Shown piece after piece: positions 53,301 through 53,626 of a stretch of 64,000 nt of DNA. Position 1 is the stretch's first letter. Each line of letters begins with the position of its first letter. The position numbers and the translations under genes were made by a program. The DNA comes from Zygnema cylindricum (Eukaryota > Streptophyta > Zygnematophyceae > Zygnematales > Zygnemataceae). The stretch is from NCBI GenBank assembly GCA_037447655.1, contig JBBHKE010000595.1, positions 62,001 to 126,000 on the forward strand. Reading direction: 5' to 3'. The notes below the pieces were generated by a model. It ran no database searches. It worked only from the letters and a program-made list of their open reading frames with translations, and was not told where the DNA came from.

Positions 53301-53620
53301 ATGAGGAAGAAGTTCCTCTTACCAAAGTGAAGTTCGATCGGTTTGTTCCAATTCGAAAATCAGATTCCGATGTCCGAAGCGATGGGATTTTGAGTTCTCG
53401 GTCTTCAGTAAGAACTCAGTCTACATTAAAATCAAAAGGTAGCTTACCATCAGTGAGGGAAGAGAATGATAAAGAAGAAGATGTGAATGTGGTTCGGCGA
53501 AGTACCCGTGAGACGAAGGGGAAGAAACCGGCCAGATTATCGTTTGATCGGCTTGGTGGAGATGTTTCGAACTCTAATTACTTTATTTCAGAGGCTAAAG
53601 AGGATGACTTCCTCTTATAG
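50312..53620 (+). CDS. gag-pol: Element C Gag-protease-integrase polyprotein
   Basis: 1102 residues from the first ATG after the PBS (MGKKKKCTPS; a GTG five codons upstream is in frame but not needed). Order: Lys/Ser/Glu-rich leader (1-165), UBN2 capsid (about 170-345, GKAILFNGSNYMVWKKYIRG), RGG-rich stretch, two CCHC knuckles (CYKCQKQGHFAAEC about 419, CYICKRWGHVSTQC about 439). The aspartic protease follows (WIIDSGATHHV, Asp about 529), then integrase zinc motif HHRMCH...CGGC (about 676) and catalytic core D743, D806, E840. The core is DD33E rather than the usual copia DD35E. An acidic/serine tail follows. The frame ends at TAG (53618). The protein would build the particle, mature it and integrate the cDNA. 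No lesion is seen. Confidence 0.95.
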   Translation: MGKKKKCTPSSAVGQRLTPEPSEDQRSPEVPSREPSERELSFGGGFGGDRPGFVPKSEESLPPDPFSQNRTSGSGTSFEPSPRFTFDEWMRAMKERSKVEKKVSKGKKKMKGPSPSSSDSESSKSSKSSENSESSEDEKAKKNRIRKGKAKMVDEDLDVGDDVEKDDSFRMPGKAILFNGSNYMVWKKYIRGQLVLKNLWRIVTGEEKRPKDLKGRQLWLRKDISAYTGLMQSCTGSALDFFLAYGTAHECWVGLEGQFEKGVQDKGQYVFKELIQFKFKPNESIDDAVKRFNILVEQLTNLGRMLDEEHKLQVFLNGLPEYLRNPCDILQSKKRATYEYAVSYLKKVDKAREGSSKGAGKTASLNVAAALETPDLNLLRGGAPRGTPRGRGGGGRGGGRERPNGSKVQADSNASNVTCYKCQKQGHFAAECPDKEKQCYICKRWGHVSTQCYDRVDGGSERGGGQGDRGRGRGRGGGRGRGPSRGGSHGYYTEFGDKSGDGFQNFSISLDMDLDSVFDEDATTEWIIDSGATHHVCTDKTLFEEMITLTVPKNIKVASGHVIPVDTIGTVRLDLPVQDVFGNERVTSTRFHNALYIPNGAVNLVSVPQIQKAGGQVVSKSDFSIVVENSKGTQVASGFVTDSMHSCLIWRRPKVKGQAVSLANQFSLQKGNLSLWHHRMCHTSEGNLKRMIRNSSVRGMELTTGEKVNGCGGCSKGKQKRKPHPVKDVKHRAKSPLELIHVDLCGHVMPRSLGGHLYIFVIVDDYSRKSWVHLLKHKSDAFEKFQEWVVMAERQSDHKLKSVRSDNGGEFVAFTEFCKEKGIRQQFTAPYSPESNGIAERKNRTLQEMVRAMIHSSGQNFFLWGDAILTANYICNRRLTSISGDKTPDELWSGVVPSVRHLRIWGCKATVYVERTQRMGKFSARSWTGIFVGYSTKGSLYRVYDPSRRVVFESRNVDFHEDLKSVMESAGKVQKDLDFEEKHEVEENSDLQESDSDEEEVPLTKVKFDRFVPIRKSDSDVRSDGILSSRSSVRTQSTLKSKGSLPSVREENDKEEDVNVVRRSTRETKGKKPARLSFDRLGGDVSNSNYFISEAKEDDFLL

Positions 53621-53626
53621 CAACTA
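53618..53626 (+). promoter_or_regulatory. Putative readthrough stop, TAG CAA CTA
   Basis: TAG at 53618-53620 ends the Gag-PR-IN frame. The next six bases CAACTA match CAR-YYA, and the same frame continues as RT (QLVNDTISGFGDPQSYSEA). Element B has TAA CAATCA at the identical place. In plants UAG CAR YYA allows a few percent of ribosomes to insert an amino acid (tobamovirus replicase; the SIRE1 element uses a leaky stop). Here it would set the ratio of structural plus IN proteins to RT. Inference only. Confidence 0.6.

Follow-up and report, generated by a model that had tools for sequence, protein, structure and literature searches.

A candidate type I readthrough stop between integrase and reverse transcriptase in a clade of copia elements

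The replicase gene of tobamoviruses contains a stop codon followed by the hexamer CARYYA, which is described as the type I stimulator and as acting on UAA too, not only on UAG; type I sites are described as needing the hexamer alone (PMC3542737). Among copia elements, the soybean Sirevirus SIRE1 also has a leaky stop, which is attributed to stop-codon suppression (PMC2829016, PMC2194720). An in-frame stop likewise splits the copia polyprotein of Tca2 from Candida albicans and VdLTRE5 from Verticillium (PMC2194720, PMC3441728), both of which are given as lacking CARYYA (PMC3441728). A survey of 13,863 plant LTR elements describes groups with two ORFs, the first of which carries GAG or GAG-PROT (PMC6317226). 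How the ratio of particle proteins to enzymes is set is unsettled for many copia elements. A preceding sequence-only reading of the DNA studied here had proposed a leaky stop between integrase (IN) and reverse transcriptase (RT), and had noted that leaky stops are familiar before envelope-like genes, as in SIRE1, and not at this position. We recognised no report of a leaky stop at an IN/RT junction in the part of the literature that was searched.

The window, i.e., the whole stretch of 64,000 nucleotides of Zygnema cylindricum DNA that was analysed, contains two copia elements, designated C and B, with the following features:

49776..50257, + strand: 5' LTR of element C (ends set by eye, from the alignment)
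50312..53617, + strand: Gag-protease-integrase frame of element C, 1102 codons, Gag ATG at 50312 (Pfam)
53618..53620, + strand: in-frame stop TAG at the integrase end of element C (sequence)
53621..53626, + strand: hexamer CAACTA of element C, matching CARYYA (sequence)
53621..54517, + strand: RT frame of element C past the stop, containing RVT_2 at residues 43-284 (Pfam), first in-frame ATG at codon 109
54510..55174, + strand: RT end and RNase H of element C, broken by frameshifts near 54510 and 54827 and by two stops
55206..55777, + strand: 3' LTR of element C, 94% identical to the 5' LTR, with an internal duplication of ~103 bp
39483..39937, - strand: 5' LTR of element B, 96% identical to the 3' LTR
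36114..36758, - strand: integrase end of element B as far as the TAA, including the SH3-like domain and the basic tail (Pfam, alignment)
36111..36113, - strand: in-frame stop TAA of element B, at the position homologous to the TAG of C (sequence)
36105..36110, - strand: hexamer CAATCA of element B, matching CARYYA (sequence)
34560..36095, - strand: RT-RNase H of element B, a single frame with three stops (alignment)
34069..34520, - strand: 3' LTR of element B (alignment)

Ahead of its stop, C encodes the Pfam domains Gag, zinc knuckle, Pol_BBD, pre-integrase, rve, and SH3-like. The RNase H was assigned by alignment to P0001, a related protein described below, and the B piece gave no Pfam match. 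PBS-like sequences follow the 5' LTRs of both elements (TGGTATCGGAGC at 50260 in C, TGGTATCGAAGC in B, whose Gag ATG lies at 39423), and we take both to belong to tRNA-Met. The elements thus show the order Gag, protease, IN, RT, RNase H inside LTRs and with a PBS, by which Ty1/copia elements are defined. No match was obtained when the 5' LTR region of C was compared with that of B. The frame of B changes twice on the way from gag to IN, and both copies are dead; in the RT of C, YVDE replaces the usual YVDD (approximately 54200-54260, + strand), which is one further sign of a dead copy. The duplication in the 3' LTR of C is a perfect tandem repeat (55550-55754, + strand) of a sequence present once in the 5' LTR.

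Several other features were observed in the window. Remains of other, more distant copia-like elements lie at 14781-18345, 57442-58715, and 41587-41855 (all + strand) and at 44870-45004 (- strand). At 60472-61545 (- strand) an rve integrase core is followed in the same frame by a PHD finger (PF00628), probably as part of an LTR element. The region 539-2881 has long open frames on both strands that consist of simple tandem repeats, and is AT-rich (25% GC in 1-4000), and a tRNA-Pro gene with the anticodon AGG is located at 28702-28774 (+ strand).

In C and B alike, the motif NSNYFIS precedes the stop and GDPQSY comes after it. The stop codon differs between the elements (TAG and TAA), as do two bases of the hexamer, and the CARYYA class is kept in both, exactly as the sequence-only reading had described. 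Its further statement that C has no other in-frame stop from gag through most of RT also held, as the frame is open from 50312 to the TAG and again over 53621-54517; two further stops, TGA CATGCG at 54881 and TAG TCAGCA at 55124, lie beyond this point. B has five other in-frame stops in the stretches that align to P0001 (TAA at 38439, TGA at 36761, and TAA at 35726, 35219, and 35003), and none of the five is followed by CARYYA, again as had been claimed. The hexamer consequently follows two of the nine in-frame stops of C and B, and these two are exactly the IN/RT stops. In the window as a whole, CARYYA follows 26 of 7,488 stop trinucleotides (0.35%; counted in every frame of both strands and with the two IN/RT sites). 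If the two sites were independent, CARYYA at both would arise by chance with a probability of ~1.2e-5. Because C and B share descent, this value is valid only to the degree that bases free of selection have become randomised, as the saturation of synonymous sites suggests. Both elements show the sequence features of a type I site, namely a stop, CARYYA immediately after it, and a downstream frame that is coding and constrained. The hexamer itself was read in these two elements of one window; the relatives P0002-P0004 and P0234 were compared as proteins.

RT lies in the same frame as IN in both elements. The linker from the stop to GDP is two codons shorter in B (8) than in C (10), so an insertion or deletion has left the frame intact. 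Past the stop of C, no AUG occurs in frame ahead of the RT core, and the first one, codon 109, is located inside RVT_2, so reinitiation at an AUG could not yield a whole RT; in B, codon 7 past the stop is an in-frame AUG. Four folds of the RNA near the stops gave no stable structure (z values of -0.36, -0.42, -1.65, and -0.71). For the 120 nt past the stops (z -0.36 and -0.42, with a fold model without pseudoknots), no structure of the kind expected for type II or type III sites was seen, and an arrangement like that at the pol/env boundary of SIRE1 was not found in C and B, as their stop lies ahead of RVT_2.

The selective constraint on the frames was analysed by comparing C and B codon by codon in seven segments and calculating pN and pS. 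In six segments pS was between 0.77 and 0.89, showing that synonymous sites are saturated, and in the IN tail it was 0.68. Bases not under selection should therefore be scrambled. The pN/pS ratios were 0.35 for gag, 0.46 for the region from protease to pre-integrase, 0.23 for the IN core, 0.55 for the IN tail, 0.20 for RT, and 0.18 and 0.23 for two parts of RNase H. RT after the stop is thus constrained like the IN core before it, and the constraint on the IN tail that leads up to the stop is only weak. The low ratio of RT despite saturated synonymous sites indicates that RT stayed useful after C and B had separated.

When proteins were searched for similarity to the IN portion of C (best 120 of 220 matches listed), four close relatives were found, P0001 to P0004, and a wide gap in score follows P0004 (1e-104 to 4e-74). 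Among the best 120 of 546 matches of another search, a Tanacetum protein, P0121, came close behind P0001 with 39% identity; a further search listed the best 120 of 7,875 matches, and more members of the clade may lie beyond the best 120 of 220, 546, and 7,875. Two scans of viral contigs revealed no encoded relative. A search of GTDB contigs gave one distant copia-like contig (L001, 32% identity), whose copia-like integrase is located at positions 1525-2625; the contig comes from a metagenome-assembled genome of Trichormus and perhaps represents eukaryotic contamination. An IN tree was built from 41 rows, including 35 outgroup rows chosen from 229. In this tree C, B, and P0001-P0004 formed one group (100/99) with the topology ((C,B),P0001),(P0002,(P0003,P0004)), in which P0001 is the nearest of the four relatives to C and B.

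P0002, P0003, and P0004 (1022, 1072, and 1064 residues) lack RT. Counted from the basic motif R(R/K/T)S.R, they end after 37, 40, and 40 residues, and the stop is reached after 41 residues in both C and B. P0001 (1574 residues), by contrast, is the only open gag-pol frame among the four relatives on the IN side (best 120 of 220 matches listed); it continues into RT, and the place of the stop is taken by Cys, residue 39 counted from the motif. The protein thus ends at the junction in five of the six rows. More intact relatives with a sense codon at this position had been named in the sequence-only reading as evidence that would refute its proposal; P0001 is one such case and by that rule refutes it in part. 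As the protein end at the junction occurs in both deep branches, the simplest histories are an ancestral stop that was lost in P0001, or two gains. The end of a contig could account for the end of any single relative. A control set of 233 listed proteins, 232 of them with an IN end, contained 66 without an RT match, i.e., the three relatives and 63 others. None of these 63 ends 30-50 residues past the basic motif: 59 do not have the motif, and of the four that do, the nearest (P0005) ends at 52 residues, already beyond the point where RT starts. The distance from the SH3-like domain, a cruder way to locate the protein end, was dropped, as its values are 103, 116, and 137 residues for the three relatives and 8 of the 63 others fall within 103-137. 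Since this distance fails to separate the relatives, the case rests on the basic motif.

On the RT side, the RT-RNase H protein P0234 (517 residues) begins just past the junction with a leucine as a non-AUG start, and its first Met is residue 118, within RT. It belongs to the same clade (100/99; tree of 29 rows, 23 of them chosen outgroup rows). We regard P0234 as weak support, because the 120 RT proteins listed start at many places, 10 of them at 0-19 residues before the RT motif, and because P0234 and P0002 possibly derive from one element. If its linker has the length of that in B, the leucine (TTG if called as a start) would imply a hexamer ending in G and not in A. P0235 and P0236 were rejected as uninformative for the junction, since their starts lie inside RT.

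The stop could mark the end of Gag-protease-IN, with RT-RNase H made from a spliced mRNA that joins an upstream AUG or removes the stop. Splicing regulates other LTR elements such as Drosophila copia and pea Ogre, according to PMC2194720 and PMC6317226, and sequences of C that resemble splice acceptors are TTTATTTCAG, located upstream, and TTATAG, located at the stop itself. Near the stop, the region checked, B has TTTATTTCGG and TTGTAA in their place and thus lacks both AGs, and splicing leaves CARYYA in both elements without an explanation; we consider this route unlikely. As the acceptor-like AGs near the stop of C are missing from B and reinitiation at an AUG could not yield a whole RT in C, readthrough is the simplest route to RT. 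Another explanation, which we consider quite unlikely, is decay: old copies would have acquired the stops at random, as inactivating mutations, and the hexamers would match by coincidence or through shared descent. The other stops and the frameshifts in both copies, the difference of 4-6% between paired LTRs, and the sense codon in P0001 would fit this assumption. However, it accounts poorly for the junction stops, since the proteins P0002-P0004 end at the same position, the constraint on RT persisted long after C and B had separated, and CARYYA follows just 0.35% of the stops in the window.

The same constraint bears on the assumption that an ancestral stop was tolerated because open-frame partners such as P0001 mobilised the copies in trans, the copies themselves supplying Gag-protease-IN only. 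Kin of this type exist, as P0001 itself demonstrates, but RT and RNase H should then have decayed, yet they are strongly constrained between C and B, which makes this explanation very improbable. Reassigned codes occur in some algae and protists, and a host decoding UAG and UAA as an amino acid would see no real stop at the junction. This was rejected on the codons of C and has next to no probability, as the 1102 Gag-IN codons contain no TAA, TAG, or TGA and 39 CAA or CAG.

Judged from the sequence features, the IN/RT stop of this copia clade is probably a programmed type I readthrough site of the tobamovirus kind. The regulated stop proposed in the sequence-only reading is supported as the best reading by the protein end in three more relatives, the constraint on RT, and the frame kept across the linker. 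Readthrough itself, its rate, and a stoichiometric purpose are our inference from the stop position, the frame, the hexamer in C and B, the constraint on RT, and the recurrent protein end. Most ribosomes would terminate at the junction stop and release Gag-protease-IN, and a minority, aided by CARYYA, would insert an amino acid at UAG or UAA and translate onward in frame, yielding Gag-protease-IN-RT-RNase H. The expected outcome would be plentiful particles and integrase and a scarce polymerase part. It also seems rather likely that the stop is a recoding point of the whole clade, placed inside pol and not between gag and pol, with IN made at Gag levels, RT-RNase H rationed by type I readthrough in parallel to the tobamovirus replicase, and the stop lost in at least one lineage (P0001). 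If a leaky stop inside pol is confirmed, integrase need not be scarce in such elements and RT would be the limited part, and a recoding signal of the plant virus type would be found at a new site in LTR elements.

In tobamoviruses, too, the polymerase domain lies downstream of the leaky stop, and the leaky stop of SIRE1 likewise has a CARYYA-type context. Tobamoviruses are RNA viruses, and their natural type I cases are described as generally UAG (PMC3542737), whereas B is an LTR element with UAA. The SIRE1 stop is located between pol and the envelope-like gene (PMC2829016), in contrast to the stop of C and B, which lies inside pol. Tca2 and VdLTRE5 are described as having UGA at the gag/pol boundary (PMC2194720, PMC3441728), in place of TAG or TAA at IN/RT. 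In the plant two-ORF groups the polyprotein is split as well, but the first ORF is reported as GAG or GAG-PROT (PMC6317226), whereas in C it comprises Gag, protease, and IN.
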